The position numbers were made by a program, and so were the translations under genes. 64,000 bases of DNA, from the NCBI GenBank assembly GCA_030737835.1, contig JAUJYN010000035.1:1302917-1366916 (forward strand), in the 5' to 3' direction. Below, one piece after another: positions 5,786-59,300 of the stretch. Position 1 is the first letter of the stretch. Every line of letters starts with the position of its first letter. The stretch is from Acorus gramineus. Lineage: Eukaryota; Streptophyta; Magnoliopsida; Acorales; Acoraceae. The notes under the pieces were generated by a model that was not told where the DNA came from, did not search any database, and was given only the letters and a program-made list of their open reading frames with translations.

Positions 5786-8330
5786 GTAAGGCAGCTCTTT
5801 GTCTTTTAAAGATCTCAGTGAATCTAGTATTTAGAGGCATATTTTTAGGATTATGTCTGCTTATGATTTGATCAGCTATGTGTCTAGATGTTATATATGA
5901 AATTTGGGGTCATTATGATATCTGTGGTGTAAGTTAGAACCAGTTTTGCATGACCTATCCAGATTTGCATATGAATTGACCTGCTTTGGTTCGCGCTTGT
6001 AGAGGAAAAAGTAGGTTCTAATGTCTGCATGGATTATGATCCCAGCATATCATAGAATGTGCATGATTTATTTCATAATCTTTGGAAGTGTATTGGGTGC
6101 TGTGAAGACCAATTAGTAGGGCTGGTTGCAGCAGGTTTAGCAGTTTTGCTTGGTTGAGTGTCAAGGAGTTGGTTGCATGTGTCTTGGGTGATAATATGGA
6201 AGTATCAGGGGTTAGGGTCTTCATGAAGTAAGCTTATATGTGTGATAGGAGGTTCCATAATTTAATTATGGATCATTGGTTGTGTTTTGCAGATCTCGTA
6301 GACCGGACGCGCGGCGATCCGGGTATCGATGAGTGGTTGGATCCAATCCCCCCCCCCCCCGCGGCGATCCGGGTATCGGTGAGTGGTTCGATCCAATCCC
6401 CCCCCTCGGGATGCGCTCAACGCGCGTAGTCGTGCGTCGCGCATCGATGGGGCCCCCTAGCTATACTACTTGTGTAGATAAGTAGTATGGCCATGCTTAA
6501 GTATAATATGTAGATATCTTGCATGCTAGGCTTATATACATGTATTGTATTCATGTATGAATGATTGTGTTGCATGAGCCCCTCTAGTATGGGCATGTAT
6601 TTTTGGTAATGTGTATGGATGTATAGAATATGACATGCCTTAGGTAGTATTGTAATAATACTCCCACCATATTAATTAGAATATCCAGCATGAATAAGTC
6701 CGGGTTAATAACGGGCACCTGCCTAATATTCCCTTGCGATAAGACTCGAGGGCGTGGTGTAGTTGTTGCACCCATGCTAATGGGGCAAAGCTATGACCAG
6801 CTTCATGAGATGATGATCTCTCCCGCCCTCTCCCTCAGAACGAACTCAGTAAGTATATGCGATTTCCTACTCGACTCAAGTTCATTAGGAATATTGACAT
6901 GCACCTATTAGTGCGCGAGATCGCGCTTGACCCTTTCTTTTAAGTTGGTGATATCCAACACATGTTTAAGTTAGGCCTTGTGTGCTTATGTGATTAATGA
7001 CCATGTATGCATGTTGTATGATTTATTATGATGTAAATCCATGTTAGGGAGTATCCCTATAATTATTAGATGATTGTGCATATGGTTCATGCACATAGCT
7101 AGATATAAAATTCTCCTGGATATATTTATATGCGCATGTTAAAAACTGATAGGCCTATCTGGGATAGGCGTGGGTATGACCCGTTGTCGGGTTGTACCTT
7201 ATTAGTTAGAGCGCTAGCGATGTAATCGCCCCATGCATCCGAGCGATGCACTCGTTTGGAATTCAGGAGAATTCATTATCTTATCGGATTGTTAAGCCGG
7301 TAGTTGGGGCGTGACACCCCCCCTGTGTCCGAGCAACGCAACGGTGTGGGAGTACAGTAGTATTCGATATCTCGACAAGTGATTATCGAAAGTAGTTATT
7401 TTTCCGTTGGGTTCGCTTTGCGAACATGGAATGTTTACTCCCAATGTCGTCCGTGTTGAAGAGGGCCAGGTTGTAGCTGTCCTGACAGAGGGCTCCCATT
7501 CGTAGGTACCACCGATGCGTTCGGGAGCGTACTGATCGTGGGAGTGTACCAGGTAGAGGCTACCCGGGAGAGGGTTAACGAATGATATTGCGAGCGTGGA
7601 ATCGTTCTCCCCTTTGTTGGATCTGATGTAGGAACTTTCCGGTGTTGGAAAAGTTGTCCTGACAGAGGGCTCCCATCCGTAGGTACCACCGAGGCGTTCG
7701 GAAGCGTACTGATCGTGGGAGTATACCAGGTAGTGACTACCCGGGGAAAGGGCTACCGGTGGACCAAGGGTGTAGAGCAGTCTAAGTCTCTTCCAAAAGT
7801 CCCAAGAGTCTCCCTCCGGGAGTGAGGGTGAGGATGAGGTGAAGACACGTTGCCTCGTGACCCATTTGTTGTTCGTCCGTTCCCATAGTTGTTGGGTCCG
7901 GTCTCGTATCGATGTTTAAAGACATCGTTGGGCAGTTATCTCGATGTAGATGATCAAGTAGTGTTGCGTAGACCAGTAATCCCGGGTCTCCTCGACCAAT
8001 GGTATGGTCTCTCCCCAAAAGTCCCAAGAGTCTCCCTTCGGGAGTGAGGGTGAGGGTGAGGTTGGTGATCCAGTAGTGTTGTGTGGAACAGTAATCCCGG
8101 GTCTCCTCGACCGACAATATGGTCTCTCCCCAAAAGCCCCAAGAGTCTCCCTCCGGGAGTGAGGGTGAGGGTGAGGTTGGTCGCGCCGCCGCGTGACCCT
8201 GTTATCCATGGGTTTTCACCCATGTTTACCTTGAAAGGAAATTGTTTATGTATTGAACTGTTGTATGGTGATTGGTTTCCAGCCACTCACTGAGCTTGTA
8301 GCTCACCCCTCGCATACTGTTTCTTTTCAG
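5786..8330 (+). other. Intron-like splice architecture in the 4934-8712 LTR
   Basis: Putative intron 1 is 5786-6292 (GTAAGG..TTTTGCAG, 507 nt, AT-rich). The micro-exon 6293-6328 has 36 nt. The next donor reads ATGAGTGG instead of GTGAGTGG, but a 50-bp tandem duplication supplies a second copy with an intact donor. The putative intron 2 ends at 8330 in TTTCTTTTCAG, with a CTCAC branch-like box about 26 nt upstream. Splicing is inferred from conservation across LTR families. Confidence 0.55.
6311..6410 (+). repeat. 50-bp tandem duplication at LTR micro-exon
   Basis: GCGGCGATCCGGGTATCG recurs at 6311 and 6361, each followed by a poly-C run. The duplication repeats the end of the micro-exon and its donor. 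The first copy has a damaged donor and the second an intact one. Confidence 0.85.
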
Positions 8331-8881
8331 GGGCAGTGTTGGGCGTGGAGTTGGAGCTTCCCTTAGGCATGGTGTTATGGGCGTGGAGCGTTCTTCCGGC
8401 GGGTGGCGAGTGCGAGGCTGTCAGCAGTCCTAGAGTCATGTATGTATTATAAATCGTGCATGTGGCACAGGTTATATTTTCTTTGGTCTAGACTTGGCTC
8501 TCACAGGACAGTGATTGTATATTCGAGTCTCTAATAATGTTTTTGGTTTACAGACATTGTTTATATATTATGCTTCCACTTTTCAGTCAGTTATCATTAT
8601 CCTTGCTTTGCCACCTTGTGTGTTGTTGTTGGAGTCTTTATTGACCTCAGGTATTGATAGCTGATATTTTATTATTGCCACGTCTCGGGGACGGCCGCCC
8701 TGGGGCGTGACAGTTATTGTTTCCCCTCTCTCAAGCACCTTTTCATGACCATTCCCCCCCTGATTTGCAGCCAGAGAAAGCTGGTGAGAAGCTCTAGAGG
8801 AGGCGTGCTGGTGGTGGTGGTTGAGGTGGCCGTGGGCGCGTCGAGAGCTCCGCATCTCCCCCTTTCCCTTTCCCTTTTTTG

Positions 8882-8920
8882 ATCTCGTTGGATGGAATGC
8901 GCGAGGTCCCGGGTTGTATG
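8882..8920 (+). other. Micro-exon fused directly to the upstream exon (intron 1 absent)
   Basis: In the A1 3' LTR the pyrimidine-rich exon ending TTTTTTG at 8881 is joined to ATCTCGTTGG. In the other A LTRs these two sequences are separated by a 506-656 nt segment with GT..AG ends. The 39-nt micro-exon keeps its downstream donor GTGAGTGG at 8921. The fusion point is exactly the predicted exon-exon junction. Confidence 0.6.
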
Positions 8921-9854
8921 GTGAGTGGTTCGATCCAATCCCCCCCCCCTCTCGGGATGCACTCGACGCGCGTAGTCGCGCGTCGCGCATCGATGGGGCC
9001 CCCTAGCTATACTAATTGTGTAGATAAGTAGTATGGCCATGCTTAAGCTATAATATGTAGATATCTTGCATGCTAGGTGTTATATATGTGTCACTTTTTA
9101 GCCTGCTGGTAACCGTTGGAGCATTTCTGGCAGTTTTTAAAATTTTTAGGGTTTTCGATCGGAACCGCAAATTTTTAGACTGTTAGCTATCGTCTGAGCT
9201 AGAGGACTCCGATTGAAAATCTAACTGCATATTTGGTGTCCTGGTGCCATTTTAGACCTCTCACGAAAATTTGTTGAATTCTGGCATCGTTTGCAAAAAA
9301 TTTCGCAGTTCCGGGGCGTATCCGGGTTTTTTAAGTCGCGCTCTACTTAAAAGGAATCAAAAAAATATCTAATCACTATTCATTGTCTTCCTCGTCGAGA
9401 TCTCTCTCTCCCCCTCTCCGTTTTTCTTCCTTTCAAGCCCCCTAGACCCCTCAAAATCGAAAACCTAAAGCACGGGAAGTGTAGATCGGGTCCCGATCTA
9501 CACTCCGGTGTTTTCAAATCCCAATTCCGACGAGTTTTGCCTGTCCGTCCGCCCTCTCTTCGTCCCTGATTTGAGCCATCTCGGCGGTGGAGGTAGATCG
9601 GGGCGTGAGAAGGCCTTTGGGAAAGGTTTCGGCGCGCGGAGAGCCACCGGACTTCCCCTCCTCCCCTTGGTAAGCCCCCTTTCCCTCTTTTTCTTGCATA
9701 AATGTATGCTAGGGGGGTGGTTTTGTGGTTGGGAGGCGGTTGGCGGCGGTGGGTGGCCGTCGGAGGGCTGTGGGAGGCGGTCGGAGGCTGTGGTGGTGGT
9801 CGGAGGTGGGTGGTAGAGGAGCTCGGGCTCGGGTAGGATGGCAGGGGGCAGCAG

Positions 9855-10850
9855 CAGCAGGCGCAGCAGGCAGGGCCGCTGGCAGGGCGCGCGCGTGCGT
9901 GCGCGCGGGCGTGCGCGCGGGCGTGCGCTCGGGCTGGCGCTGGGCGTGCCTGGTGCTGGGCGGGCAGGGCTAGTCGGGTGCTAGGTTGGCAGGGCTAGCT
10001 GGGTAGGCTGGGAGCAGGGCACCAGTTTGCTGGGCGCGCGAGCGCGTGCGCGCGGGCGCGCGCGCGGGCGTGCGCTCGGGGGGTGCAGGGGCGCTCGGGC
10101 ATCAGGCGGGCAGTGCCCCGGGCGTGCAGGCGAGCGGTGCTCGGGCCACTCGGCGACGCGCGCAGGCAGGCAACGCGGGCAGCAGCGCGGGCAGGCTGGC
10201 AGGCGCGCTGGGCGCGTGCTGCCAGGCGCGCTGGGCGCGTGTTGCGCGGGCGTGCGCGTGGAAGCTGGGTGAGGGTCCCGGGCGCTGGGCGCTGAGCGCT
10301 GGGCGCTGGGTCGCGGGTGCCGGGTGCTGGGCGCTGGGCGCTGGCGGGCGCAGTCGGGAGCGCAGTCGTGCGCGGGTGCGCGGGTGCGCGCGGAGTGGGT
10401 GCGCGGGTGCGCGCGGGTGCTGGCGCGAGCGGGGGTGTGCGCGGGAGTGCGCGCGGGTGCGCGCGGGCGTGCGCGCGAGCGTGCGCGCGCGCGGCAGGGC
10501 ACCTGGGCACTTCGCCTGGGTGCTGGGCAGGGCGCCTGGGCATGCGCCTGGGCGCGGTGCTAGGGGCCAGTGCGCGCGGTGCTGGGGGCCAGTGCGTGCG
10601 CGTGCTGGGGCGTGCGTGCAGTGCGCGCGGGGGCGCGCTGGGCTGGACGCGCGGTGCGCGCGGGCGCGCGCGAGTGTGCGCGTGCGTGCGGCGGTGCGTC
10701 GGGGCGCGCGGGCCGGCGTGCGACAGTGCGCCGGTGGTGTCCGGGTATGCGGGCTGGGCTCGGCAGTGCGCCTTAGCGCGCGGGCCGAGGCTCGGCTGTG
10801 CGCTCGGGATGCTCGGATACACGTGCGTACGGGCCGTATGTACGTTTATC
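9855..10850. repeat. GC-alternating, CpG-dense low-complexity core of LTR intron 1
   Basis: About 1 kb consists almost wholly of runs such as GCGCGCGGGCGTGCGC. It lacks A/T-rich stop triplets, so open frames of up to about 350 codons exist on both strands; these are compositional. The alternating purine-pyrimidine pattern is Z-DNA-prone. It lies entirely within the predicted intron 9670-10926. Confidence 0.85.
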
Positions 10851-11730
10851 CGAGTGTTGGGTATTTTAGATGTATTTTTGGGTATTTTATGCATTGTTCT
10901 CACCATATTGAATGTCTGTCTTGCAGATCTAGACGTACGGTCGCGCGATGACCCTGATACCGGTGAGTGGGACAATCCAACCCAGTAGAGAGGGGTCATA
11001 CGCATTTGGGCGTATACCGACCTCTCCTGGGGCGTCATGGATAAATATTAACCTGCAATTATATGTATATCATGCGAGCATGATTTAATTGTAGAATGCA
11101 TGTTACCCTAGACTTTGCATGTTAGGGACTTGCACCCTTAGGATATGTGTATGAGCCATGCAGCATGTCCCCTGGTTCCAGGTTAGGAAGCCTGGCCGAT
11201 GCATGTGCCCTACTAGTTTATTTATTTGATTAAATGCTAGTATTTGTTTACAATGCATGTTATAGTGAATATTATAGGGGAGGGGCCTTGCGAGGACAGC
11301 GGTGAGACCCGGGTTAGGGTACACCGTGTTCCTTGTTTGGTTGTCGGGGTGTCCTATAACGGGAACTCACGCTGCCCTCCCGAGTTTCTTTTCCCCAACA
11401 ATATTTCACCCTGTTATAACCTTATGCATGTTCCCCGCATCGTAGTTATGCGCCCTGGTGGGTTCTGAGGAATTCAGAACATTAGTGTTGTTATAATGTG
11501 CCGTCTGCGGATCCAAGTGGATCATATGCGATGGGTAGGCTGTTCTGTTCCCTTCGTTGGATCCGGTAGAGACTACCACAGCGTTAGACAGGCCTTCCTG
11601 ACAGAGGGCTCCCATTAGTAGGCATCTCCTGATTTTGGACGGACTGTGCTGAATGTGGGAGTAGACCAGGCGGCCTACGGAGTGGAGGAGAGACTATCGG
11701 TGGATCAAGGGTGACCAACAGCCTAGTCAG

Positions 11731-12085
11731 TCCCAAAATCCTATGTCACCCATTGAAGGGTGAGGGTGAGGGTGTAGTGGGTTGGCGATGAACGACCCAC
11801 TGGAGTTGTGATTGGATGCTTGTAAATCCCAAAATCCTGTGTCACCCATTGAAGGGTGAGGGTGAGGGTGTAGCGGGTTGGCGGAAGCGACCCGTTGGTT
11901 TTTGGTGCAGTTAGTCCCAATATCCTATGTCACCCGTGGTAGGGTGAGGGTGAGGGTGTAGTGGGTTGGCGATGAGCGACCTACTGGATTTGTGAATGGA
12001 TTATTATCAGTCCCAATAGCCTATGTCACCCATTGATGGGTGAGGGTGAGGGTGTGGTGGTTCGGCGAAGTACGAATCACTGGAT
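11731..12085 (+). repeat. Four tandem 88-96 bp units with G-quadruplex motifs
   Basis: Units start TCCCAA at 11731, 11827, 11915 and 12011. Each has a TCACCC..GGGTGA hairpin followed by GGGTGAGGGTGAGGGTG. In units 1-3 a fourth G-run makes a canonical four-run motif (11758-11781, 11854-11877, 11942-11965). Related degenerate units occur in B1 (about 16740-16915). Confidence 0.85.
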
Positions 12086-14345
12086 CATGTTGTTATGTCT
12101 TAGAGGCTGGATAAATAATGGAATTGTGGTAAATATTGTCTGTGATGCATGGGTTGTGCCGTTCACTGAGCGTGTGGCTCACCCCTCGCACAATATTTTT
12201 CTTCAGTGCCATCTGAGTCGGATCCGGAGGAGGAGCTCCCTGAGGGACTTCATCAGTAGCGGAGTAGCGCCACGTCCCGCGAGTTGCAGAGACTATCAGC
12301 ATCCCTTGTACCAGTATGTATTATTTTCCGTGCTTGGGCACGCGTTTGTGTTGTATTTGGACGTCTTTGTATGTATATTGGCTCTCACAGGACATGTGAT
12401 TATGTATGGAATCTGTAGTGTGTTTTGATTACAGATTCAGTCTTAGTTATCCGCATTTGGTGTATATATCATGTCAGCCCTGCTTTTGTTGTCTGTGTGT
12501 CATTTCTGGCTGTTTGTGTATGATATTATTGACCTCCTGTGTAGATTCTGATATTATATATACACTTGCCGCGTCTCGGGGACGCCCGGGGCGTGACACT
12601 AGGCTTATATACATGTATTGTATTCATGTATGAATGATTGTGTTGCATGAGCCCCTCTACTATGGGCATGTATGTTGTAAATGTGTATGGATGTATAGAA
12701 TATGGCATGTCTTAGGTAGTATTGTAATACTACTCCCACCATATTAATGGGAATATACAGTATGATTAAGTCTGGGTTAATAACGGGCACTTGCCTAATA
12801 TTCCCTTGCGATAAGACTCGAGGGCGTGCTATTGCGCCCATGCTAATGGGGCAAAGCTATGACCAGCTGCATGAGATGATGATCTCTCTCGCCCTCTCCC
12901 TCTGAACGAACTGAGTAAGTAGATGTGATTTCCTACTCGACTCAGGTTCGTTTGGAATATTGGCATGCACCCGTTAGTGCGTGAGATCGCGCTTGACCCT
13001 TTCTTTTAAGTTGGTGATATCCAACGCATGTTTAAGTTAGGCCTTGTGTGCTTATGTGATTAATGACCATGTATGCATGTTGTATGATTTATTATGATGT
13101 AAATCCATGTTAGGGAGTGTCCCTATAACTATTAGATGATTGTGCATATGATTTATGCACATAGCTGGATATATTTATATGCGCATGTTAAAAACTGATA
13201 GGCCTATCTGAAATAGGCGTGGGTTTTACCCGCTGTCGGGTTGCACCTTATTATCTAGAGCGCTAGCGATGTAATCGCCTCGTGCATCCGAGCGATGCAC
13301 TCATTTGGAATTCAGGAGAATTCATTAGCTTATGGGATTATTTCTCTGTGAGAGCAGAGGCAACCCTTTTGTGTCTGAGCGACGCAACGGTGTGGGAGTA
13401 CAGTAGTATTCGATATATCGATAAGTGATTATCGAGAGCAATTGTTTTTCCATTGGGTTTGCTTTGCGAACATGGAATGTTTACTCCCAATGTCGTCCGT
13501 GATGAAGAGGCCCGGGTTGTAGGTGTTGTGCCTGTGTCATTTGGAGCGCTCTGATTGAAAATTTGGCTACATAATTTTTTCCTCGAAGTTATGTATTTCC
13601 AATTTGGTATTTGGATTTGATTTTGTTAAAATCCAAGATGAAGAGGTTTAAATATAATTTTATTATGAGATGTCCAGTTTTGAGTTAGCTTTCGTACAAA
13701 AGTGGAATTAGGTCAACTGGATTCATGTAGTAAAAGTTATGGGTATTTTACCAAGTATACCCCGGGGAGGGAAATTCTGGCAGCAGCCCTGTTCTATGTT
13801 TAGCTCTAATTTCGGAATATCTGGAGAGATTATTTGATCTTGACATAAACATGAAAGTTGTAGATAATCTTCTTGGCTTTCCAACGGACTTGGAATTGTG
13901 CAATTCGAAGCTATATCGAGGAAGTTATGGCTGTTCCAGTGAAGCATGCGCAGAATTTCTAAGTCAGGGATGAAATGGTCATTTCCATCCCTCTTTAGAT
14001 ATTTAGTTGCAACAAAATATCCTCCCTCTCTCTCTCTCTCATCCCCTCCCACATCCCACGTCCATTCTTGGCTCTCTCTTTCTCTCTTTCAACCCCTCAA
14101 GGTGTTTGTGAAAATGTCCCAAAGAGAAGGAGAAGGTGGAGGAGGAAGAAATGGTGAGGATTTGTTCATGTGTTGTTCTTGTTGTGATCTCCTCTCTCTC
14201 AAGCACCCTCTCATATTTTGTTCTCCCCCCCCCCTGATTTGCAGCCAAGGGAGGGCTGAGGAGGTGGTGGTGGTGGAGGTGGTGGAGGTTGTCGCGGGTG
14301 CATCGAGGGCCCTCGAGTCTCCCCCTTTTCATTCCCCCTCCAAAG

Positions 14346-15040
14346 GTGAGCTCCTCCCCTTCTTTTCTTGTTTTTTTTCATGGATTAAGGGCGGTTGGGA
14401 TGGTTGAGGATGTTATGCATGCTAGGTAGATGGGTTAGAGTGTGTGTGAGGGGTTGGGAAGGGTTAAAATGGGGTTAGGGTTGGCTGGGCGCGCATTGGG
14501 AGTTGTCTGCGCGCGTGCACGCGCAGGCGGGCGTAGACGCGTGCAGACGCGCGAGTGCGTGGGTGCGCGTAGAGTGGGCCGCGAGCGGGGGTGCGCGCGG
14601 AGTGCGCGCGAGTGCGCGCGCGCGTAGCAGTGCGCCTGGGCGCGGGGCTGGGGACCAGTGCGCGTGCTGGGGCATGCGCAGGGTTCTGCATGAGGGCGCG
14701 TGGGCTGGACGGGCGGTGCACGCGGGAGTGCGCGAGCTTGCGCGCGCGCGCGGCAGCGCGTCTGGGCGCGCGGGCAGGCGCGCGGCAGTGCGCCGAGGGT
14801 GCTGGGGTGCGTGCGTGCGCATGCGGGGGGCCATGCGTGTGGCTGCCCGAGGGTTCGGGTAGGTGTCGGGGCACTCGGACTCGCGTGCGTACGTGCGTGC
14901 TCGCATGCGTGCGAGTCCGTATGCATGCTTGTCCAAGTATTTGGTATTTCTATGTGTAAATTGTGTTGTTACTCACCAAATTGGATGCCCCTACCTTGCA
15001 GATCTCGTCGGATGGGATGCGCGAGGTCCCGGGTTGTAAG
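14346..15040 (+). other. Intron 1 and micro-exon in the 13524 LTR
   Basis: Putative intron 1 is 14346-15001 (AAAG|GTGAGC to CTTGCAG, 656 nt) and contains a GC-alternating core at about 14490-14880. The micro-exon is 15002-15040 (39 nt), followed by GTGAGTGG. Putative intron 2 would end at 26198 (TTTCTTTTCAG) but is interrupted by B1. This LTR has the same downstream exon variant as the intron-less A1 LTR, so it is the best comparison for it. Confidence 0.55.
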
Positions 15041-16217: not shown

Positions 16218-19200
16218 TGTCACGCCCCAGGGCGGCCGTCCCCGGGACGCGGCAAGTGTATATATGATATCAGTGACAGGAAATCAATAATAAACCAGAA
16301 ACAATCACTAAAATGACACACAGATAAAAGCAGGGCTGACATAATATATACACCGAATGCGGAAGCTAAAAGACTGAGTCTGTAGTCAAAAACATACTAC
16401 AGACTCGATACATAATCATAAGTCCTGTGAGAGCCAACATGCCCGTATATATACACAACAAAATCCAAATACAATCCAACTAAGTGCCCAAGCACAGAAC
16501 ATATACGTACAACCGAAAGAAGGGTGCTGATGGCCTCAAAACTCGTGGGACGCGGCGCTGCCCTCTGCTGGTGTAGTCGCTCGGGAAGCTCCTCCCTCAG
16601 AGATCACTGAAAAGATAATATGCGAGGGGTGAGCCACACGCTCAGTGAATAGCACAACCCATGCATACAGTTCATATTAACCACATTTAATCAATTCATA
16701 AGCCACAAGCGGCATAATATCACCATCCGGGGGTTCGTTCATCGCCGAACTCCATACCCTCACCCTCACCCTCACCCTCAACAGGTGACCTAGGATGTTG
16801 GGACTTAGCGGGTTAATAAACATCCATTCATAATCCTGTGGGTCGTCGCATCGCCGGCCCACCATACCCTCACCCTCACCTCTCAACAGGTGACCTAGGA
16901 TGTTGGGACTGACTAGGCTGTTGGTTACCCTTGGTCCACCGATAGTCTCTCCTCACTCCGCGGTTGTTTGGCCACTCCCATGTTCAGCGCAGTCCTTCCA
17001 AGTCAGGAGGCGCCTACTAGTGGGAGCCCCTGCACGGGACAACCTGTCTAACGCCGAGATAGTCTCTACACGGATCCGACGAGGGGAACAGAACAGCCTA
17101 TCCATCGCATATGATCCAATCGGATCCGCTGACAGCACATCTCTAAGACTCTAATGTCTCGAATTCCTCAGAATTCCACCAGCGCGCATAACCAGGATGC
17201 GGGGAACATGCATTTATTAATCATAATACAAGGGAAAATAGAGACCTTGGGAGGGTAACCTGAGGTCCCGATGTAGGACATCCGACAACCAAACGAGGAA
17301 CACGGAGTACCCTAACCCGGGTCTCAATGTTAACCTCGCAAGGCCCCCCTTATATTCCCTAAGCATGCTATCTATTATTACAGTTCGCATTTAATTAAAT
17401 AAACCAAACTAATAGGACGCATGCACAGGTCGGGCTTTCCTAGCATGATAGCGAGGTGGCAGGATGCATGGCTCATGCACAATCCTAAGGGTGCAAGTCC
17501 CTATCACACAATCTAGGGTGGCATGCAATTCTACACACACATCATGCATACATGGATTATAAAATAACAGTTAATACAAGCTATACGCCCCAGGGGAGAG
17601 CGGTACACGCCCAAAGCATGTAACGCCTCCCAAACTGGGTTGGGTTGTCCCACTCACCGGGAATCGGGTCGACGCGCGACCGTCCGTCGAGATCTGCAAG
17701 ACAAGGTATTAACTGGTTAGAATAAATCCACAATTATCCCAAAAATACATACACACACAACAAACACCCAAAGATCCCAAACAAAACCCCCAACACCCTC
17801 GGCACCCCCGCACGGCCACCCGACCGCCCGGACGCGCCGCCGCGCCTCAGCCCGCGCACTCCGCGCACCGCCCGGGGCACCGCGCGTCCACCGAGCCCAG
17901 CCGCGGCAGCCCGCACGCGCCCCGCACGCCGTGCGCACGCTCCACGCCCCGCGCGCGCCCCGCGCGCACCTCCGCCGCGCCCCGCGCACGCCTCGCGCAC
18001 AGCTCCTCGCCCCGCGCACGCCTCGCGCACAGCTCCTCGCCCCGCGCCTCCTCCGCACGCGCCCCAGCACCTCCGCCAGCATCTCCGCCAGCCCTCCGCG
18101 CGTCCAGCACCTCGGCCAGCACCTCCGCGCGTGCCTCGCGCGTCCATCAGCCCCGGCCAGCACCTCCGCGCGTGCCTCGCGCGTCCAGCACGTCGGCCAG
18201 CACCTCCGCGCGCGCCCAGACCAGCGCCCAGACCAGCTCCTCGCGCCAGCTGCACGAGCAGACCCGCGCGCAGCACCACCCGAGCAGCTCGCACGCCTCG
18301 CACCGCCGCGACCAGCTCCCCCGAGCGCACGCCCGCGCGCACGCTCGCGCGTACGCACGCGCGCGCCCCCAGTCGGCTCCTGCTCGTTGCCTGTGCTGCC
18401 TGAGGCCCCCAGCCCATCCAGCACTGCCAGCACGACCAGCCCCACGCACCAGGCCCGCGCACCCACGCACACGCCGCGCGCACGCACACCCGCGCACGCA
18501 CGCGCGCATGCCCGCGCGCGCCCGGCCTGCGCGCTGCCTGGCCGCTGCCGCTGCTCCCTGCTGCCCGGGACAGTCCCCCAGCCTGCCGAGCACCTCCAAC
18601 CACCCCTCCCACTGCCCCGACCACTTCCAACCACCTCCGACCACCCTCCGACGACCCCCTCAGCCACCGACCACCCCCAAACACAAAACCCTCCCTAGCA
18701 ATCATCTAGACAGAAAAAAGAGGGAAAGAGGCTTACCGAGGGGAGGAGGGGCGTCCGGTGGATCTCCACGCGCCGAAACCCTTCCCACAAGCCTTCTCAC
18801 GCCCCGATCTATCACGGCCCTCGATTTGGCTCGAAACAGAGGAGAGAGAGGGGAGGTCGGGGAGGCTAGGATCGTCGGAATTCGGATTTGAAGACACCGG
18901 AGCGTAGATCGGGACCCGATCTACACTTCCCGTGCTTTAGGTTTTTGGTTTTGAGGGGTGTAGGGGCTCGAACGGAAGAAAATCGGAGGAGAGGAGAGAG
19001 AGAGAGCTAGTCGGGAAGATGATGAATAGTGAAAAGATATTTTTGATTCCTTTTAAGTAGAGCGCGACTTAAAAACCCGGATACGCCCCGGAACTGCGAA
19101 ATTTTTGCAAACGATGCCAGAATTCGATGAAATTTTCATGAGTGGCTTAAAATGGCACCAGGACACATAATATGCAGTTAGATTTTCAATCGGAGTCCTC

Positions 19201-24288: not shown

Positions 24289-25581
24289 TGTCACGCCCCA
24301 GGGCGGTCGTCCCCGGGACGCGGCAAGTGTATATATGATATCAGTGACAGGAAATCAATAATAAACCACAAACAATCACTAAAATGACACACAGATAAAA
24401 GCAGGGCTGACATAATATATACACCGAATGCGGAAGCTAAAAGACTGAGTCTGTAGTCAAAACATACTACAGACTCGATACATAATCATAAGTCCTGTGA
24501 GAGCCAACATGCCCGTATATATACACAACAAAATCCAAATACAATCCAACTAAGTGCCCAAGCACAGAACATATACGTACAACAGAAAGAAGGGTGCTGA
24601 TGGCCTCAAAACTCGTGGGACGCGGCGCTGCCCTCTGCTGGTGTACGCACGCGCGCGCCCCCAGTCGGCTCCTGCTCGTTGCCTGTGCTGCCTGAGGCCC
24701 CCAGCCCATCCAGCACGACCAGCCCCACGCACCAGGCCCGCGCGCACCCACGCACACGCCGCGCGCACGCACACCGGCCTGCGCGCTGCCTGGCCGCTGC
24801 CGCTGCTCCCTGCTGCCCGGGACAGTCCCCAGCCTGCCGAGCGCCTCCAACCACCCCTCCCACTGCCCCGACCACTTCCAACCACCACCGACCACCCTCC
24901 GACGACCCCCACTGCCACCGACCATCCCCCACACACAAAACTCCCCCTAACAATCATCTAGACATGAAAAGAGAGGGAAAGAAGCTTACCGAGGGGGAGG
25001 AAGGGGCGTCCGGTGGATCTCCACGCGCCGAAACCCTTCTCACAAGCCTTCTCACGCCCCGGTCTATCACGGCCCTCGGTTTGGCTCGAAACAGAGGAGA
25101 GGTCGGGGAGGTCGGGGAGGCTAGGATCGTCGGAATACGGATTTGAAGACACCGGAGCGTAGATTGGGACCCGATCTACACTTCCCGTGCTTTAGGTTTT
25201 TGGTTTTGAGGGGTGTAGGGGGCTCAAACGGAAGAAAAACGGAGGAGGGGAGAGAGAGAGGCTAGTCGGGAAGATGATGAATAGTGATTTCAAATTTTTA
25301 GATTCCTTTTAAGTAGAACGCGACTTAAAAACCCGGATACGCCCCGGAACTGCGAAATTTTTGCAAACGATGCCAGAATTTGATGAAATTTTCATGAGTG
25401 GCTTAGAATGGCACCAGGAGACATAATATGCAGTTAGATTTTCAATCAGAGTCCTCTAGCTCAAGACGATAGCTAACAGTCTGAAATTACGCGGTTCCGA
25501 TCGAAAAACCCTAAAAATTTTAAAACTGCTAAAAATGCTCCAAAGATTGCCAATAGGCCAAAAAGTGACACATATATAACA
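24289..25581 (-). mobile_element. 5' LTR of B1 with a 1.78-kb internal deletion
   Basis: The LTR is only 1293 bp. It matches the 3' LTR on both sides of one junction at 24645/24646. The missing part corresponds to 16576-18353 of the 3' LTR. Both ends of the lost segment carry GTA, of which one copy remains. The lost part includes the 3' end of intron 1, the micro-exon and intron 2. Smaller length differences occur in the GC-rich part. Confidence 0.9.
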
Positions 25582-38436: not shown

Positions 38437-39520
38437 ATGAAAAACACAAGAGCATATAAATTTTCAGTTGAAGAAGATATGATGCTTATATCCACATAGT
38501 TCATGGAACTGAGCAAAAGAATCACATATTGGGAACGAGTCCATTCCTAATACCAATAGTACAAACAATTTAAATATGAGCGAACAACCAATTCTTTTAT
38601 GCATCATTGTGGGTAAATTTCATGGCTATTTTATGTAGATTGAAGCAAGACAACAAAGCGGTATCAATGAACAAGACAAGGTATTTATCTTATTAAAATT
38701 CATAAGTTTATACTCATTATTTTTTCAATTTTATAATTAATTAGTTTTATGTATTTTTTTAAAATTAGGTCTGTCAAACAATGGAAATGTATCTAAACTT
38801 TCATCATTCAACATTTCAATTTTTACATTGCTGGAATGAATTGAAAAATTCACCGAAGTGGTGCACTGAAAGTTTCAAGAAGAAGTCCAAAAATTCAAGA
38901 AATGCTAGTTCTACAACTTCTTGTCCTTCAACTCCAGATTCAGTAAATTTAGGAAAAGATAATGCTAGTTCAGTTGTTGATGATACTATTGTCGGTTTGG
39001 AGAGACCACTGGGCAGAAAAGCTGCGAAGGAGCGACTGAAACAGGGAAAAGGCAAACAAACAGTTGAGAACATGGATGGAATGCCCATCGCGAAGTTGTT
39101 TGAAGAGTACAAGGAAGAGCAAAAAATGGCCAAACAAGTGAGAAAAGAGCAGTTTGACAAATTATATGCTCAAGAGCATGAGATGATTTTTATTAAGAAA
39201 GAAAAACTTCGACTGAAAGAAATAAAAGAGAATGAGAGAATAATGGCGATTGATACTTCTAACATGCATTCACAGCAATGCCCATCGCGAAGTTGTTTGA
39301 AGAGTACAAGGAAGAGCAAAAAATGGCCAAACAAGTGAGAAAAGAGCAGTTTGACAAATTATATGCTCAAGAGCAGGAGATGATTTTTATTAAGAAAGAA
39401 AAACTTCGATTGAAAGAAATAAAAAGAGGATGAGAGAATAATGGCGATTGATACTTCTAACATGCATTCACAGCAAACAGATTATTACAAGACCCTCCAT
39501 ATGCAAATAATTGCAAAAAG
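38437..39520 (+). pseudogene. PIF/Harbinger ORF1 (Myb/SANT-like DNA-binding protein), broken
   Basis: Exon 1 starts MKNTRAYKFSVEEDMMLI, then meets a TAG where the family has Trp, and continues RTTNSLMH-like and GINEQDK. An intron at 38681-38768 (GTATTT..TTAG) joins in phase to VCQTMEMYLNFH. Exon 2 carries FQFLHCWNELKNSPKW and GRKAAKERLKQGK, typical of plant Harbinger ORF1 and NAM-associated C-termini, then a Lys/Glu-rich coiled-coil. A 197-bp tandem duplication shifts the frame near 39278. ORF1 normally helps the transposase enter the nucleus and bind DNA. Convergent orientation to the transposase at 39690-40288 is the usual layout. Confidence 0.82.
39081..39474 (+). repeat. 197-bp tandem duplication in Harbinger ORF1
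   Basis: ATGCCCATCGCGAAG starts at 39081 and at 39278. The copies are nearly identical, with one A insertion and a few substitutions, so the duplication is recent relative to the rest of the decay. Confidence 0.92.
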
Positions 39521-42177: not shown

Positions 42178-45100
42178 TGTTATGCCTGTGTCATTTGGAG
42201 CCATTTCGGTTAAGCCTTGGTCACATCTGGGTCATTCAGGGCCTTTTTCTTTTTCGATCGGAGTCGCTAAAATTTTAGCTTTTAGCTACCTGCAGGAGTT
42301 GGAGTACTCTGATTGAAAATCTAACTGCATATTATGGGTCCTGGTACCGTTTTGTACTACACATAAAAATTTCATCGAATTCCGGTAACGTTTTGAAAAT
42401 TATGTAGTTCCGAACCGTATCCGGGTTTTGGTCGATACTGGATTTTCAAAGGGTGACTTTGACCAAGTCAAATGAAGACTTTGACCAGTCAAGGATGACC
42501 TAGAAGTCAAGGGATTTGTTTGTTTCCTAGGTTGGGTTGACTTAGGTCAAAATCCACCAAACCCCTTTTTGTAAATTAATTACCTCTCTCTCTCTTTTTC
42601 TCTCCTTCTCTCTCCCACCCTTAGGAAATCCATCCGAGGCTTTCTTTTCTCCTCTCCCTCTCATTTGTGTGTATTGGGTGGAGAAAGTGAAGGAGAAGAT
42701 GAATAGTGTATGAAGGGATGATCTAGCTAAGGTGAGTTTGTGTGTGTGTATGTGTTGTTGTTTCTTTCCCTTCTCCATCTCCAACCCTCTCATGCCTCCC
42801 CTCATGTTTTCCTCTGTTTTTCAGCCAAGAAGGGCTGGTGGAGAGGCTGAAGAGATGGTGGTAGTGGTGGTGGTGGTTGAGGTGGTCGTGGGTGTGTCGA
42901 GAACCCCGCATCTCCCCATTTCCCTCGCCCTGTTTTGGTAAGGCAGCTCTCTGTCTTTTAAATATCTCAGTAAATCTAGTATTTAGAGGCACATTTGTAG
43001 GATTATGTCTTCATATGATATGATCATCTATGTGTCTAGTTGTTATATATGAAATTTGGGGTCATTATGATATCTGTGGTGTAAGTTAGAACCAGTTTTG
43101 CATGGCCTGTCCAGATTCGCGTAGGAATTGACCTGCTTCTGGAAATAATTTATTTCGAGCTTGTAGAGGCAAAATTAGGTTCTAATGTCTTCATGGATTA
43201 TGATCCCAGCATATCAGAGAATGTGCATGATTTATTTCATAATTTTTGGAAGTGTATTGGGTGCTGTGGAGACCAATTAGTAGGGCTGGTTTCAGCAGGT
43301 TTGGCAGTTTTGCTTGGTTGAGTGTCAAGGAGTTGTTTGCATGTGTCTTGGGTGATAATATGGAAGTATCAGGGGTTAGGGCCTTCATGAAGTAGGCTTA
43401 TATGTGTGATAGGAGGTTCCATATTTTAATTGTGGATCATTGGTTGTGTTTTGCAGATCTCGTAGACCGGACGCGTGACGATCCGGGTATCTGTGAGTGG
43501 TTTGATCCAATCCCCCCCCTCGGGATGCGCTCGATGCGCGTAGTCACGCGTCGCGCATCGATGGGGCCCCCTAGCCATACTACTTGTGTAGATAAGTAGT
43601 ATGGCCATGCTTAAACTATAATATGTTAGATATCTTGCATGCTAGGCTTATAGTGCATGTATTGTATCCATGTATGAATGATTGTGTTGCATGCGCCCCT
43701 CTAGTATGGGCATGTATTTCTGTAGTGTGTATGGATGTATAGAATATGGCATGCCTTAGGTAGTATTGTAATACTACTCCCACCATATTAATTGGAATAT
43801 CCAGCATGATTAAGTCTGGGTTAATAACGGGCACCTGCCTAATATTCCCTTGCGATAAGACTCGAGGGCGTGGTGTAGTTGTTGCGCCCATGCTAATGGG
43901 GCAAAGCTATGACCAGCTTCATGAGATGATGATCTCTCTCGCCCTCTCCCTCTGAACGAACTGAGTAAGTAGATGCAATTTCCTACTTGAGTCATGTTCG
44001 TTTGGAATATTGGCATGCACCTGTTAGTGCGTGAGATCGCGCTTGACCCTTTCTTTTAAGTTGGTGATATCCAACGCATGCTTAAGTTATGCCTTGTGTG
44101 CTTATATGATTAATGGCCACGTTTGCATGTTTAAGTAGGCCATACCATGTATGCATGTTGTATGATTTGTTGTTTATGATGTAAATCCATGTTAGGGGTC
44201 ACCCTTATGGTCAATTATTAGATGATTGTGCATATAGTTCATGCACATAGCTAGATATAATTCTCCTGGATATATTTATATGCGCATGTTAAAAACTGAT
44301 AGGCCTATCTGAAATAGGCGTGGGTATGACCCGCTGTCGGGTTGTACCTTATTAGTTAGAGCGCTAGCGATGTAATCGCCCCGTGCATCCGAGCGATGCA
44401 CTCGTTTGAAATTCAGGAGAATTCATTATCTTATCGGTTTTGTTAAGCCGGTAGTTGGGGCATTAAGCTAGGCCTACCCGTGCTAGGCGTGTATATGAAC
44501 CGCCTGTTGGGTTATGTGCCTTGGGATTATTTCTGCGTGAGAGCAGAGGCAACCCCCTTGTGTCCGAGCAACGTAACCGTGTGGGAGTACAATAGTGTTC
44601 GCTATCATCGATATGTGATTATCGAGAGTAATTGTTTTTTCATTGGGTTCGCTTTGTGAACATGGAGTGTTTCCTCCCAATGTCATCCGTGTTGAAGCGG
44701 CCCAGGTTGTAGCTGTCCTGACAGAGGGCCCCCACCTGTAGGTACTATCGATGTATGCGATAAGATGTACTGATCGTGGGGGTATACCAGGTAGAGGTTA
44801 CCCGGGAGAGGGCTAATTGCGAGCGTGGAATCGTTCTCCCTTTCGTTGGATCTGATGTAGGAACTTCCCGGCATTGGAAAAGCTGTCCTGACAGAGGGCT
44901 CCCATCCGTAGGTACCACCGAGGCGTTCGAAAGCATACTGATCGTGGGAGTATACCAGGTAGTGACTACCCGGGGAAAGGGCTACCGGTGGACCAAGGGT
45001 GTAGAGGAGTCTAATCTCTCCAAAATTCCTATGTCACCTGTAAAGGGTGAGGGTGAGGATGAGGTGAAGACATGTCGCCGCATGACCCATCCGTGGTTCG

Positions 45101-45940
45101 TCCGTTCCCATAGTTGTTGGGTCCGGTTGCATATCGATGTTCAAAGACATTGTTGGGCAGTTATCTCGATGTAGATGATCTAGTAGTGTTGTGTAGACCA
45201 GTAATTTTGGGTCTCGTCGACCAACGGTATGGTCTCTCCCCAAGAGACCCAAGAGTCTCCCTCCGGGAGTGAGGGTGAGGGTGAGGTTGGTGATCCAGTA
45301 GTGTTGTGTGGACCAGTAATTCCGTGTCTCTTCGACCAACGGTATGGTCTCTCCCCAAAAGTCCCAAGAGTCTTCCTCCGGGAGTGAGGGTGAGGGTGAG
45401 GTTTGTCGCGCCGCCGCGTGACCTTGTTATCCATTGGGTTTCTACCCATGTTTTTCCTTGAAAGGAAATTGTTTTAGTATTGAACTGTTGTATGGTGATT
45501 GGTTTCCAGCCACTCACTGAGCTTGTAGCTCACCCCTCGCATACTGTTTCTTTTCAGGGGCAGTGTTGGGCGTGGAGATGGAGCTTTCCTGTGGCGTGGT
45601 CTTATGGGCGTGGAGCGTTCTTCCGGCGGGTGGCGAGTGCGAGGCTGTCAGCAGTCCTAGAGTCATTTTATGTATTGTAAATCGTGCATGTGGCACAGGT
45701 TGTATTTTATTTGGTCTAGACTTGGCTCTCACAGGACAGTGATTGTGTATTCGAGTATGTAATAATGTTTTTGGTTTACAGACATTGTTTATATATTATG
45801 CTTCCGCTTTTCAGTCAGTTATCATTATCCTTGCTTTGCCACCTTGTGTGTTGTTGTTGGAGTCTTTATTGACCTCAGGTATTGATAGCTGATGCTTCAT
45901 TATTGCCACGTCTCGGGGACGGCCGCCCTGGGGCGTGACA
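42178..45940 (+). mobile_element. Solo LTR, family A, inside the Tat-type gag
   Basis: TGTTATGCC to GGGGCGTGACA, 3763 bp. The flanks TTTTC (42173-42177) and TCTTC (45941-45945) are a target duplication with one change, and Tat gag coding continues on both sides. Confidence 0.92.
42938..45557 (+). other. Intron-like splice architecture in the 42178 LTR
   Basis: Intron 1 42938-43456 (TTTTG|GTAAGG to TTTTGCAG, 519 nt, AT-rich type), micro-exon 43457-43492 (36 nt), intron 2 43493-45557 (GTGAGTGG to TTTCTTTTCAG, 2065 nt). An additional small donor/acceptor pair (AAG|GTGAGT at about 42731; TTTTTCAG at about 42825) may define a further ~95-nt intron upstream. Confidence 0.55.
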
Positions 45941-46190: not shown

Positions 46191-46205
46191 CTTTTAGTTT
46201 CGTGT

Positions 46206-46223: not shown

Positions 46224-46224
46224 C

Positions 46225-48954: not shown

Positions 48955-51466
48955 GTAAGGCAGCTCTCTGTCTTTTAAAGATCTCAGTGAATCTAGTATT
49001 TAGAGGCACATTTGTAGGATTATGTCTTCATATGATATGATCATATATGTGTCTAGTTGTTATATATGAAATTTGGGGTCATTATGATATCTGTGTTGTA
49101 AGTTAGAACCTTTTTTGCATGGCCTATCCAGATTCGCGCAGGAATTGACCTGCTTCTGGAAATAATTTATTTCGGGCTTGTAGAGGAAAAATTAGGTTAT
49201 AATGTCTGCAGGGATTATGATCCCAGAATGTCAAATAATGTGTATGATTTATTTCATAATCTTTGGATGTGTATTAGGAGTTGTGGAGATCAAATAGTAG
49301 GGCTGGTTGTAGCAGGTTTAGCAGTTTTGTTCGATTGTGTGTCAAGGAGTTGTTATGCATGTTGTGGAAAGTATTAGGAGTTAGGGCCTTCATGAAGTAG
49401 GCTAATATGCGGGTCAAAAGGTTCCATATTTTAATTGTGGATCATTGGTTTGTCTTGCAGATCTCGTAGACCAGACGCGCGGCAATCCGGGTATCGGTGA
49501 GTGGTTCGATCCAACCCTTCAGGAAGCATTGGATGCACATAGTCGTGCGTCGCGCATCCGTTGGGCACCCTGACTACACTACTTATTTAGATAAGTAGTA
49601 TGGTCATGTCTAACCCATAATATGCTAGATATTTGCATGCTAGGTTAGTATAGCTCGTATATTGTGTAGAACCCCCTTATTCTATCTACCATATACTTGC
49701 CAATGTATCATATTCATGTGTGAATTATTATGTTTGCATGCGCCCTTCATGTATGGGCATGTGTGATGTGTGTTTATAATGAATGTATAGAATATGCATG
49801 CCTTAGGTAGTCTCTATTTATAGTACTACCTCCCTATGTTAGTAATATCTAGCATGATTAAACCTGGGTTAATAACCGGGTGCATACTTAATATTCTCTG
49901 GTCATAAGACTGGAGGACGTGGTATGGTTGTTGCACCCATCTTGTTCGGGCAAAGCTATGACCAGCTTCTGAAGAGGATGAGACTTTTTCCTCTCTCTCA
50001 TCCTCCCTCTTTGCGTAAACTGAGTAAGTAGATATGGTTCCTACTTGACTCAGGTCCGCTTGGGATTATCGGCATGCACCGGTTGTTGCGCGAGATCGCG
50101 CTTAACCCTTCCCTTTTAAGTTGGTGATATCCAACGCATGCTTAAGTTATACCTTGTGTGCTTATATGATTAATGTGCCTCATATGCATGTGTAGTTAGG
50201 CCATGCCTTGTATGTATGTTGCATGATTTATTGTCTATGATGTATATTCGTGTTAGGGAGTACCCTATAATTAATCATATGTTATCGCGCATGTTAAAAC
50301 TAATTAGGCCTATCTGAAATAGGCGTGGGTACAACCCGTTGTCGGGATGTACCTCATTAGTTTGAGCGTGAGCAATGTAATCGCCACCCTGCATCTGTGA
50401 GATGCACTTGAATGGAATTCAGGAGAATTCATTGTTGTATCGATTTTGTTAAACCGGTGGCTATGGCATTAAGTTGGGCTTACCCGTGCTAGGCGCGTCT
50501 ATGAACCGCTTGTTGGGTTATATGCCTTGAGCTTATTTCTGCGTGAGAGCCGAGGTAACCCCTCGCGTCAGAGCGACGCACCCGTATGGGAGTATAAGAG
50601 TATTCGATGTCATCGATATGTGATTATTGAGCGTAGTTAACTTTCCCATAGGGTTTGCTTTACGAACATGGGGTGCTTCCTCCCGACATCGTTGTGTGTC
50701 GAAACACCCCAGCATCGAAGCTGTCCTGTTTGGGTGCCACCACTTGTAGGTGCTACTGATGCATATCACGGTACACATCTGGCTGATGTACCGATCGTGG
50801 AAGGCCGACAGGTAGAGGCTACGCGGGAGAGGGCTACCGGATGATATTGCGAGCGTGGAATCGTTCTCCCCTTCTTCGGATCCGTGTTGAAGCTACCCGA
50901 CGTTAAAGCTGTCCTAACAGAGGGCTCCCACCTGTAGGTACTACCGATGCGTTCGACAGATGTACTGATCATGGGAGTATACCAGGTAGAGGCTACTCGG
51001 GAGAGGGCTACCGGATGACGAAGGGTGTAGAACAAAAGGTTTTCTTCCAACAGTTCTGTGTCACCCTTAGGGGTGAGGGTGAGGATGAGGTGAAGTCACG
51101 TCGCCGCGTGACCCATTTGTTTTCGTCCGTTCCCATAGTTGTTGGGTCCGGTTACGTATTGATGTTCAAAGACATCGTTGGGCAGTTATCTCGATGTAGA
51201 TAGTCCAGTAGTGTTGTGTGAACCAGTAATTCTGCGTCTCTTCGACAAACGGTGTGGTCTCTCCCTAAGAGTCCCAAGAGTCTCTCCGGGAGTGAGGGTG
51301 AGGGTGAGGTTGGTCGCGCCGCCGCGTGACCTTGTTATCCTTTGGGTTTCTACCCATGTTTTTCCTTGAAAGGAAATTGCTTTAGTATTGAATTGTTGTA
51401 ATGGTGATTGGTTTCCAACCACTCACTGAGCTTGTAGCTCACCCCTCGCATACTGTTTCTTTTCAG
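48955..51466 (+). other. Intron-like splice architecture in the 48211 LTR
   Basis: Intron 1 48955-49460 (TTTG|GTAAGG to TCTTGCAG, 506 nt), micro-exon 49461-49496 (36 nt), intron 2 49497-51466 (GTGAGTGG to TTTCTTTTCAG, 1970 nt). All four splice signals are intact. Confidence 0.55.
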
Positions 51467-56302: not shown

Positions 56303-59300
56303 TATCACACCCTAGGGCGGCCGTCCCCAAGACATGGCAATAATGAAATATCAGCTACCAATAGCTGAGGTCAATAAGACTCCAACAACAACACACAAGG
56401 TGGCAAAGCAAGGATAATGATAACTGACTGAAAAGCGGAAGCATAATATATAAACAATGTCTGTAAACCAAAAACATTATTACATACTCGAATACACAAT
56501 CACTGTCCTGTGAGAGCCAAGTCTAGACCAAATAAAATATAACCTGTGCCACATGCACGATTTACAATACATAAAATGACTCTAGGACTGCTAACAGCCT
56601 CGCACTCGCCACCCGCCGAAAGAACGCTCCACGCCCATAAGACCACGCCACAGGAAAGCTCCAACTCCACGCCCAACACTGCCCCTGAAAAGAAACAGTA
56701 TGCGAGGGGTGAGCTACAAGCTCAGTGAGTGGCTGCAAACCAATCACCATACAACAGTTCAATACATAAACAATTTCCTTTCAAGGTAAACATGGGTGGA
56801 AACCCCTGGATAACTGGGTCACGCGGCGGCGCGACCAACCTCACCCTCACCCTCACTCCCGGAGGGAGACTCTTGGGACTTTTGGGGAGAGACCATACCG
56901 TTGGTCGAGGAGACCCGGGATTACTGGTCTACGCAACACTACTGGATCATCTACATCGAGATAACTGCCCAACGATGTCTTTAAACATCGATACGAGACC
57001 GGACCCAACAACTATGGGAACGGACGAACAACGAATGGGTCACGAGGCGACGTGTCTTCATCTCATCCTCACCCTCACTCCCGGAGGGAGACTCTTGGGA
57101 CTTTTGGAAGAGACTTAGACTGCTCTACACCCTTGGTCCACCGGTAGCCCTTTCCTCAGGTAGTCACTACCTGGTATACTCCCACGATCAGTACGCTTCC
57201 GAACACCTCGGTGGTACCTACGGATGGGAGCCTTCTGTCAGGACAGCTTTTCCAACGCCGGGAAGTTCCTACATCGGATCCAACGAAGGGGAGAACGATT
57301 CCACGCTCGCAATATCATTCGTTAGCCCTCTCCCGGGTAGCCTCTACCTGGTACACTCCCACGATCAGTACGCTCCCGAACGCATCGGTGGTACCTACGG
57401 ATGGGAGCCCTCTGTCAGGACAGCTACAACCCGGGCCTCTTCAACATGGACGACATTGGGAGTAAACATTCCATGTTCGCAAAGCAAACCCAATGGAAAA
57501 CAACTACTCTCGATAATCACTTATCGAGATATCGAATACTACTGTACTCCCACACCGTTGCGTCGCTCAGACACAAAGGGGGGGGGTTGCCTCTACTCTC
57601 ACGTAGAAATAATCCCAAGGCACATAACCCAACAGGCGGTTCATATACACGCCTAGCACGGGTAGGCCTAGCTTAATGCCCCACTACCGGTTTAACAATC
57701 CGATAAGATAATGAATTCTCCTGAATTCCAAATGAGTGCATCGCTCGGATGCACGGGGGCGATTACATCGCTAGCGCTCTAACTAAAAAAGTACAACCCG
57801 ACAACGGGTCATACCCACGCCTATTTCAGATAGGCTTAATTAGTTTTAACATGCGCATATATTTTATAGGAGAATTTAATCTTAGTTATGTACATGAACC
57901 ATATGCACGATCACATATCAATTAATCATAGGGATACTCCCTAATCATAGATTTACATCATAATAAATCATACAACATGCATACATGGTCATTAATCACA
58001 TAAGCACACAAGGCCTAACTTAAGCATGCGTTGGATATCACCAACTTAAAAGGTAAGGGTCAAGCGCGATCTCGCGCACTAACAGGTGCATGCCAATATT
58101 CCAAACAAACCTGAGTCGAGTAGGAAATCGCGTCTACTTACTCAGTTCGTTCAGAGGGAGAGGGCGAGAGAGATCATCATCTCATGAAGCTGGTCATAGC
58201 TTTGCCCCATTAGCATGGGCGCAACAACTACACCACGCCCTCGAGTCTTATCGCAAGGGAATATTAAGGCAGATGCCCGTTATTAACCCAGACTTAATCA
58301 TGTTCAATTTCCAATTAATATGGTGGGAGTAGTATAACAATACTACCTAAGGCATACCATATTCTATAGATCCATACACATTACCGAAATACATGCCCAT
58401 ACTAAAGGGGCTCATGCAACACAATCATTCATACATGAATACAATACATGTATATAAGCCTAGCATGCAAGATATCTACATATTATAGCTTAAGCATGGC
58501 CATACTACTTATCTACACAAGTAGTATAGCTAGGGGGCCCCATCGATGCGCGACACGTGACTACACGCGTCGAGCGCATCCCGAGAGGGGGGGGGGGGAT
58601 TGGATCGAACCACTCACCATTACCCGGGACCTCGTGCATCCCATCCGACGAGATCTGCAAGGTAAGGGCATCAAATTTGGTGAGTAACATCACAATTTAA
58701 CACTTAGAAATCACTAGAAATACCAAAGACTTAGACATGCACGCATGCGAGCACGCGCGTACGCACGCATGCCCGGGTGCCCCAGCACCTACCCGAGACC
58801 CTGGGCAACCCCACGCATGCCCCAGCACGCGCACGCACGCGCGCGCGCGCACTGGCACCCAGCCGCGCACCCAGACCTGCCCAGGCACACTGCCCACGCA
58901 CGCGCACGCTCGCGCGCGCCCGCGCGCACGTCCTGTGCGCACCCCGCTCACTGCCAGCGTAGCGTCCACGCGCACCCGCGCGCACGCCCGCGCCTGCATG
59001 CCCGCCGGTGCTTGCCAGCGCCCCTCTGCTCGCTCGCCTGCACGCGCACGCGTGCAGACAGGCCCCCTGCGCGCGCCCAGCCATCCTTAACCCTTTTTAA
59101 CCCCTCCCCCACACTTCTCACTCACCCTAAACCAAATACCTAGCATGCATGACTTCCCCACAACCCCCTAAGCCATGAAAAACCAAGAAAAGAAGGGGAA
59201 GAGCTCACCTTGGGAGGGGGAATGAAAGGGGGAGATTCGGGGGCCCTCGATGCACCCGCAACCACCTCAACCACCACCACCACTACCACCACCTCCTCAG

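Follow-up and report, generated by a model that had tools for sequence, protein, structure and literature searches.

Can the long terminal repeat (LTR) of a plant retrotransposon contain complete introns? The question is raised by a stretch of 64,000 nucleotides (nt) from Acorus gramineus (contig JAUJYN010000035.1, positions 1,302,917 to 1,366,916, forward strand), which is referred to below as the window and consists of nested plant LTR retrotransposons. An original prediction, made from the letters alone, proposed that LTRs in the window share a donor, the acceptor TTGCAG|ATCT, a micro-exon with a second donor and a later CAG, and that splicing of the LTR leader is under selection. Our analysis showed that this layout is real in eight LTRs and that a ninth copy, X, lacks intron 1 exactly at the predicted splice sites. 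We consider it probable (roughly 0.8) that chromovirus-like Ty3/gypsy LTRs hold real spliceosomal introns in their transcribed repeat, that their RNA is divided between a spliced messenger RNA (mRNA) and an unspliced genome, and that X records a failure of this division.

Layout of the Two Predicted Introns

The eight LTRs are denoted A, C, D, E, F, G, H and B1, the last being the 3' LTR of the coding element B1. All of them share TTGCAG|ATCT, and their predicted features are as follows.

Plus strand, exact TTGCAGATCT sites: 6287 (A), 10921 (H), 14996 (G), 43451 (D) and 49455 (E)
Minus strand, exact TTGCAGATCT sites: 58660 (F), 34835 (C) and 17699 (B1)
A, plus strand: intron 1 5786-6292 (507 nt); micro-exon region 6293-6378; intron 2 6379-8330
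H, plus strand: intron 1 9670-10926 (1257 nt); micro-exon 10927-10962; intron 2 10963-12206
G, plus strand: intron 1 14346-15001 (656 nt); micro-exon 15002-15040; donor 2 15041; acceptor 2 26198/26199, past the nested B1
B1 3' LTR, minus strand: intron 1 17694-18736 (1043 nt); micro-exon 17658-17693 (36 nt); intron 2 16607-17657 (1051 nt)
C, minus strand: intron 1 34830-35277 (448 nt); micro-exon 34794-34829; intron 2 33805-34793
D (LTR 42178-45940), plus strand: intron 1 42938-43456 (519 nt); micro-exon 43457-43492 (36 nt); intron 2 43493-45557 (2065 nt)
E, plus strand: intron 1 48955-49460 (506 nt); micro-exon 49461-49496; intron 2 49497-51466
F (LTR 56305-59959), minus strand: intron 1 58655-59208 (554 nt); micro-exon 58618-58654; intron 2 56685-58617

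In every LTR except A, a G|GTAAG or G|GTGAG donor lies 448-1257 nt 5' of acceptor 1, and GTGAGTGG follows 36-39 nt 3' of it; both ranges match those predicted. Intron 1 has GT...AG ends in 8/8 LTRs. The micro-exon measures 36 nt in D, E, C, B1 and H, 37 nt in F and 39 nt in G, and a coding role for it was rejected because these lengths keep no frame. Donor 2 is GTGAG in all eight LTRs, if the second copy of a duplication in A is counted, and reads TCT|GTGAGT in D. Intron 2 spans 989-2065 nt in the seven LTRs that can be measured without crossing an insertion, that is, 0.99-2.07 kilobases (kb) where 1.0-2.1 kb had been predicted; in G it is split by the insertion of the B1 element. Acceptor 2 has AG in eight of the ten LTR copies compared and also in H, and the copies W and X have TG. 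The junctions predicted for B1 on the minus strand, 18737/17693 and 17658/16606, proved exact to the base.

LTR A departs from the layout at both donors. Its donor 1 is TTTTT|GTAAGG, without the exonic G, and a 50-nt tandem duplication (6310-6405) contains two versions of donor 2, of which the first is mutated to ATGAG and the second is intact. Owing to this duplication, the next GTGAGTGG stands 86 nt after acceptor 1.

Exact Loss of Intron 1 in Copy X

Comparison of the LTRs with each other by BLAST revealed the ninth LTR, X, in four pieces broken by later insertions (4217-4933, 8713-9077, 12599-13523 and 26579-27703). Its junction is arranged as follows.

X, plus strand: exon 1 8771-8881, joined to the micro-exon 8882-8920 (39 nt); GTGAGTGG, the start of intron 2, at 8921

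Within the piece 8713-9077, similarity to exon 1 of D and E extends through its final base, after which the sequence matches the F and G micro-exon (...CCCTTTTTTG|ATCTCGTTGGATGG...). With an ambiguity of 1 nt, the junction lies at 8881/8882 (...TTTTTTG|ATCTCG), so that intron 1 is missing exactly at the predicted sites. All other lineages possess intron 1, so that its absence from X represents a loss. The nearest nested insertion, LTR A with the duplication GTTAT, ends 169 bases 5' of the junction and is thereby ruled out as its cause. We also catalogued the clean one-sided gaps of at least 40 nt among 17 LTR pieces; the X row is the sole one of the 19 large-gap rows (which represent fewer independent events) that falls at predicted splice sites. 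Thus, X carries a spliced exon 1/micro-exon junction, which is evidence for splicing of intron 1 additional to that of the original prediction. From these sequence data we conclude that intron 1 is a true spliceosomal intron located within the LTR.

Splice Site Strength and Conservation

Donor strength was estimated as U1 pairing energy relative to all GTs of the same LTR, and acceptor strength by a simple pyrimidine score relative to its AGs. In seven of the eight copies in each case, no more than 6% of LTR GTs pair better with U1 than donor 1 does, and no more than 4% outdo donor 2. For acceptor 1, 3-10 AGs per LTR score higher (at most 4.5%, 8/8 copies); for acceptor 2, the number is 0-3 (at most 2.2%, 6/6 copies, G and H lying outside the scoring).

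The original prediction called for a comparison of the splice ends with their flanks, and among the LTRs of the window this comparison came out in its favour. The cross-lineage identity of the 5-nt core was 0.90 at donor 1, 1.00 at acceptor 1, 1.00 at donor 2 and 0.86 at acceptor 2. Other windows within 60 nt had a mean identity of 0.34-0.43, and none of the 98 per site equalled the core at any of the four sites, a contrast that is an upper bound since the windows were anchored on the motif, which favours the core. In an alignment made without anchoring, the donors 1 of all eight LTRs share one column. Ahead of acceptor 1, F, G, C and H carry CTCAC, B1 carries CTAAC, and A, D and E carry TTAAT; we take all three sequences to fit the branch-site consensus.

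Two further features of intron 2 were observed. A highly conserved block, CACTGAGC..GCTCACCCCTCGCA, stands just 5' of acceptor 2 in all lineages (45530-45558 and its equivalents in 10 LTR copies; 12180 in H); it could pair GAGC with GCTC and so bring the branch site near the acceptor. Repeats of GGGTGAGGGTGAGGG fit a sense-strand G-quadruplex pattern in intron 2 of B1 (16777, minus strand), C (33972, minus strand) and H (11758, 11854 and 11942, plus strand); the strict pattern does not occur in intron 2 of A, D, E and F.

Retention of Intron 2 in the W/X Element

Downstream of the copy W (1-1473) stands TGGTATCAGAGC, and the purine-rich AAGGGGGAAGA stands upstream of X; for this reason, W and X were taken as the two LTRs of one element. 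The change at acceptor 2 is common to both.

X, plus strand: 27307-27321, acceptor 2 changed, TTTTCTG instead of TTTTCAG
W (5' LTR partner of X), plus strand: 1077-1091, acceptor 2 likewise TTTTCTG

The element with this CAG to CTG change is thus the one in which X retains the start of intron 2. Based on the conservation of its splice sites and on the acceptor change in an element that keeps it, intron 2 is very probably also a real spliceosomal intron inside the LTR. The proposal of selected splicing in the LTR leader is therefore strengthened for intron 1 by the X junction; for intron 2 the evidence consists of site conservation and the acceptor change.

Lineages and Possible Exchange of Intron 1

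The LTRs had been assigned to three families. Around intron 1 we found four lineages instead, A/D/E, F/G/X, C and B1/H; in the 3' part of the LTR, A, D, E, F, G, I, W and X belong to a single family with 88-98% identity, which is about 60-64% identical to C, B1 and H. In a tree of the 3' LTR part, W and X were joined (support 79) inside the A/D/E/F/G/I group (support 100), with C, B1 and H outside; the inner supports ranged from 33 to 82.

The interior of intron 1 gave no alignment in any of the 15 pairs between A/D/E and the other types, and with low-complexity masking on, B1 and H shared no intron 1 pieces. In the tree comparison, the 3' LTR parts of D and F show 97% identity; the two LTRs are also 90% identical over the first 270 nt and 88% identical from the intron 1 acceptor onward, and their introns 1 are unrelated. 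An unrelated intron 1 beside a nearly identical 3' part suggests that an intron 1 module was replaced or recombined, and D and F are perhaps mosaic LTRs that arose by template switching.

A third, upstream intron of about 80-98 nt may be suggested for LTRs of the A/F/G/C type. A conserved AG|CCA (TG|CCA in A) marks the start of exon 1, and A, C, D, E, F, G and X each have a G|GT some 80-98 nt ahead of it. X keeps this segment, and there the distance is interrupted by the insertion of A. The donors of this candidate vary and were picked by eye, there being two or more GTs to choose from in A, E, F and G.

D, plus strand: 42732-42824, possible extra upstream intron (93 nt)

Proposed Mechanism and Its Consequences

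The transcript would start upstream of exon 1. Splicing at intron 1, and very probably at intron 2, would join exon 1, the micro-exon of 36-39 nt and an exon 3 that would end just before the primer-binding site. The RNA that is reverse transcribed would normally be mainly unspliced, because the eight other copies all keep intron 1. The spliced form would most likely be a pool of mRNA with a short leader, and the unspliced form would be the genome. X may then be regarded as a fossil. Damage to acceptor 2 would leave a transcript spliced at intron 1 alone, and strong-stop DNA templated by such a 5' leader would bring the exon 1/micro-exon junction together with intron 2 into the new LTRs, producing an LTR without intron 1. 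This account predicts that W also lacks intron 1, since a single strong-stop product gives rise to both LTRs; the 5' part of W lies outside the window.

A wider proposal, which we consider about evenly poised between right and wrong, is that a plant chromovirus lineage keeps two LTR introns (in some types perhaps three) and separates RNA destined for reverse transcription (unspliced) from RNA destined for translation (spliced). The LTR would then be a natural retrotransposition reporter, and each intron-less copy would be the record of a sorting error. Intron 1 would be a module that lineages exchange or replace within constant borders. If this is right, a genome sequence would tell, through the intron state of its LTR copies, from which RNA pool they were reverse transcribed, and the separation of translation and packaging would become testable by counting. 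In addition, spliced complementary DNAs that map to such LTRs could pass wrongly for host noncoding genes.

Leader Function and Alternative Explanations

We calculated the effect of the predicted splicing on the leader of seven LTRs, with an arbitrary start 300 nt ahead of donor 1 and the end of the LTR as its limits (G was left out due to its insertion). The leader would be shortened from 2177-3303 nt to 717-768 nt, and the number of ATGs would fall from 47-99 to 6-15. This is compatible with the purpose that had been suggested, shortening of the leader before gag.

Several observations weigh against the interpretation of these segments as spliced introns. Donor 1 of A is weak (48 of its 326 GTs pair better), as is donor 2 of D (41 of 343). 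Typical plant introns are richer in U than the flanking exons. Relative to exon 1, the T content of intron 1 is higher in A, D and E but lower in F, C, B1 and H (four of the seven LTRs measured), and in B1 and H intron 1 contains 73-75% G+C. In all eight comparisons across the lineages F/G, C and B1/H, pieces of intron 1 are common to both copies. X represents a single event; its BLAST alignment with G has its left end 8 nt before the donor and leaves 6 X bases unaligned, the left end having been set at the donor by the alignments with D and E, and the exon ends vary relative to G. A further CAG occurs 6 nt past the changed acceptor 2, so that splicing of intron 2 could have shifted rather than stopped. 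Three junction patterns detected no copy without intron 2 and no exon 2-exon 3 junction in the window. Finally, the exons still hold the 6-15 ATGs mentioned above, which argue against a simple clear path to gag.

The remaining ATGs speak for an alternative in which the introns are real and serve to raise or protect transcription, either by intron-mediated enhancement or because U1 small nuclear ribonucleoprotein suppresses early poly(A) sites in the 5' LTR; the LTR would then resemble a small three-exon noncoding gene. The strong donors near the 5' end agree with this, and there are precedents in the available portions of the literature, since U1 binding suppresses 5' poly(A) sites in HIV-1 (human immunodeficiency virus 1) and foamy viruses (PMC12789967) and leader introns enhance plant genes. 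However, enhancement alone leaves unexplained why a 36-39-nt exon and a second intron are retained in all lineages. As a replacement for the division between spliced and unspliced RNA it has, in our estimate, about a one-in-three standing and clearly falls short of even; it is nevertheless a serious alternative or additional role. That the sites are never spliced is much less probable. They could be conserved by shared ancestry together with some DNA or RNA element, the gap in X being a chance deletion, and it is true that the micro-exon start ATCTCG (0.96) and the GTGAGTGG beyond the donor are conserved more than splicing requires and that the loss in X occurred once. But a chance deletion must strike both predicted sites, as only X among the 19 rows does. 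An RNA element is opposed by the folding of the micro-exon: a GGTC/GACC hairpin seemed possible by eye, and the structured-RNA candidate was rejected with z values of -0.26 to +1.36 in 8/8 copies; moreover, no Rfam family reached its cut-off in the window. We regard this explanation as improbable. Still less likely is that the 5' end of a host gene, introns included, was taken up by an ancestral LTR and that the splice sites are relics without present use. The 5' part of the LTR does resemble a plant gene leader, with a CT-rich stretch followed by a strong donor, but unused sites would be expected to drift with their flanks, and these sites do not. Real introns that divide spliced mRNA from unspliced genome thus remain our preferred interpretation.

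Elements in the Window

The coding part of B1 (about 23716-19373, minus strand) encodes Gag, protease, reverse transcriptase, RNase H and integrase in Ty3/gypsy order, spread across three overlapping open reading frames (ORFs). The protease-reverse transcriptase-RNase H-integrase order, TG...CA ends, primer-binding site and target duplication that characterize a Ty3/gypsy LTR retrotransposon were all found. TGGTATCAGAGC, the primer-binding site, follows W, F and the B1 5' LTR. Departures from TG...CA were noted in E, which starts with TA, and in the last bases of F. Target duplications are exact over 5 base pairs at A and H, and match in 4/5 bases at G, D, E and C; these six look like solo LTRs.

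The integrase C-terminus (residues 528-572) matched the chromodomain PF00385 weakly (E = 0.0011; 19.3 bits, under the Pfam cut-off of 25.1); the clade label Tekay comes from the original prediction. A protein search with the integrase region of B1 gave 7987 proteins with E <= 1e-50 among 8000 scored, and among the 120 matches listed, identity was at most 65%. At the DNA level, there was no match in viral, prokaryotic and plasmid collections, which are uninformative about plants. No transfer RNA was found in the window.

The 5' LTR of B1 (24289-25581) lacks 1775 nt of the 3' LTR (18350-16576), from within intron 1 to within exon 3, and has thereby lost the micro-exon and both acceptors. It was considered as a spliced copy and rejected, because neither end of the gap is at a splice site; it is an ordinary deletion.

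Two other features were recorded. At 31550-32086, two adjoining arrays of a 91-92-nt unit in opposite orientations form a large palindrome. At 38781-39476, an ORF with a NAM-associated C-terminal domain (PF14303, E = 2.2e-17) overlaps a 197-nt tandem duplication with 98% identity.

Comparison with Known Systems

The papers below are cited for the portions of their text that were available. Diaspora, a soybean element of the Athila clade, is like the present elements in being Ty3/gypsy with a very long leader and with donors predicted inside the LTR (PMC1142308). Its sites, however, are predictions only and unconserved, and its predicted acceptors flank the gag-pol start codon (PMC1142308); here, both introns are entirely inside the LTR and one copy has an exact loss. 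According to the authors of that paper, neither retroviruses nor LTR retrotransposons had been reported to have introns upstream of gag (PMC1142308).

In Ogre, an intron separates the ORFs (PMC6317226, PMC12786077), and the sunflower Ty1/copia elements Tyran and Varan yield spliced isoforms (PMC7730604). BARE1 and EVADE are likewise plant LTR retrotransposons with a spliced mRNA and an unspliced RNA, the former being subgenomic Gag RNAs (PMC3735527, PMC12786077), but they belong to Ty1/copia, and their introns lie in the coding region and alter the protein. The BARE authors suggested that replication must avoid the spliced RNA, whose DNA copies were not amplifiable from barley DNA (PMC3735527). 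X resembles a DNA copy of a spliced RNA, the very kind that was not amplified for BARE.

Retroviral donors are found within the R region, for example in human T-cell leukaemia virus 1 and foamy viruses. The donor is thus inside the repeated region, as it is here; their acceptors are outside the LTR, whereas here both introns have their predicted donors and acceptors within it. In their available portions, PMC3601003, PMC9097378 and PMC12844716 describe no introns within an LTR. No report of complete introns inside an LTR was found among the open-access titles and beginnings of abstracts listed, a survey that leaves the subscription literature mostly uncovered and absence in print unproven. Splicing of plant retrotransposons is already known; what appears to be new here is that both predicted introns lie wholly within the LTR.

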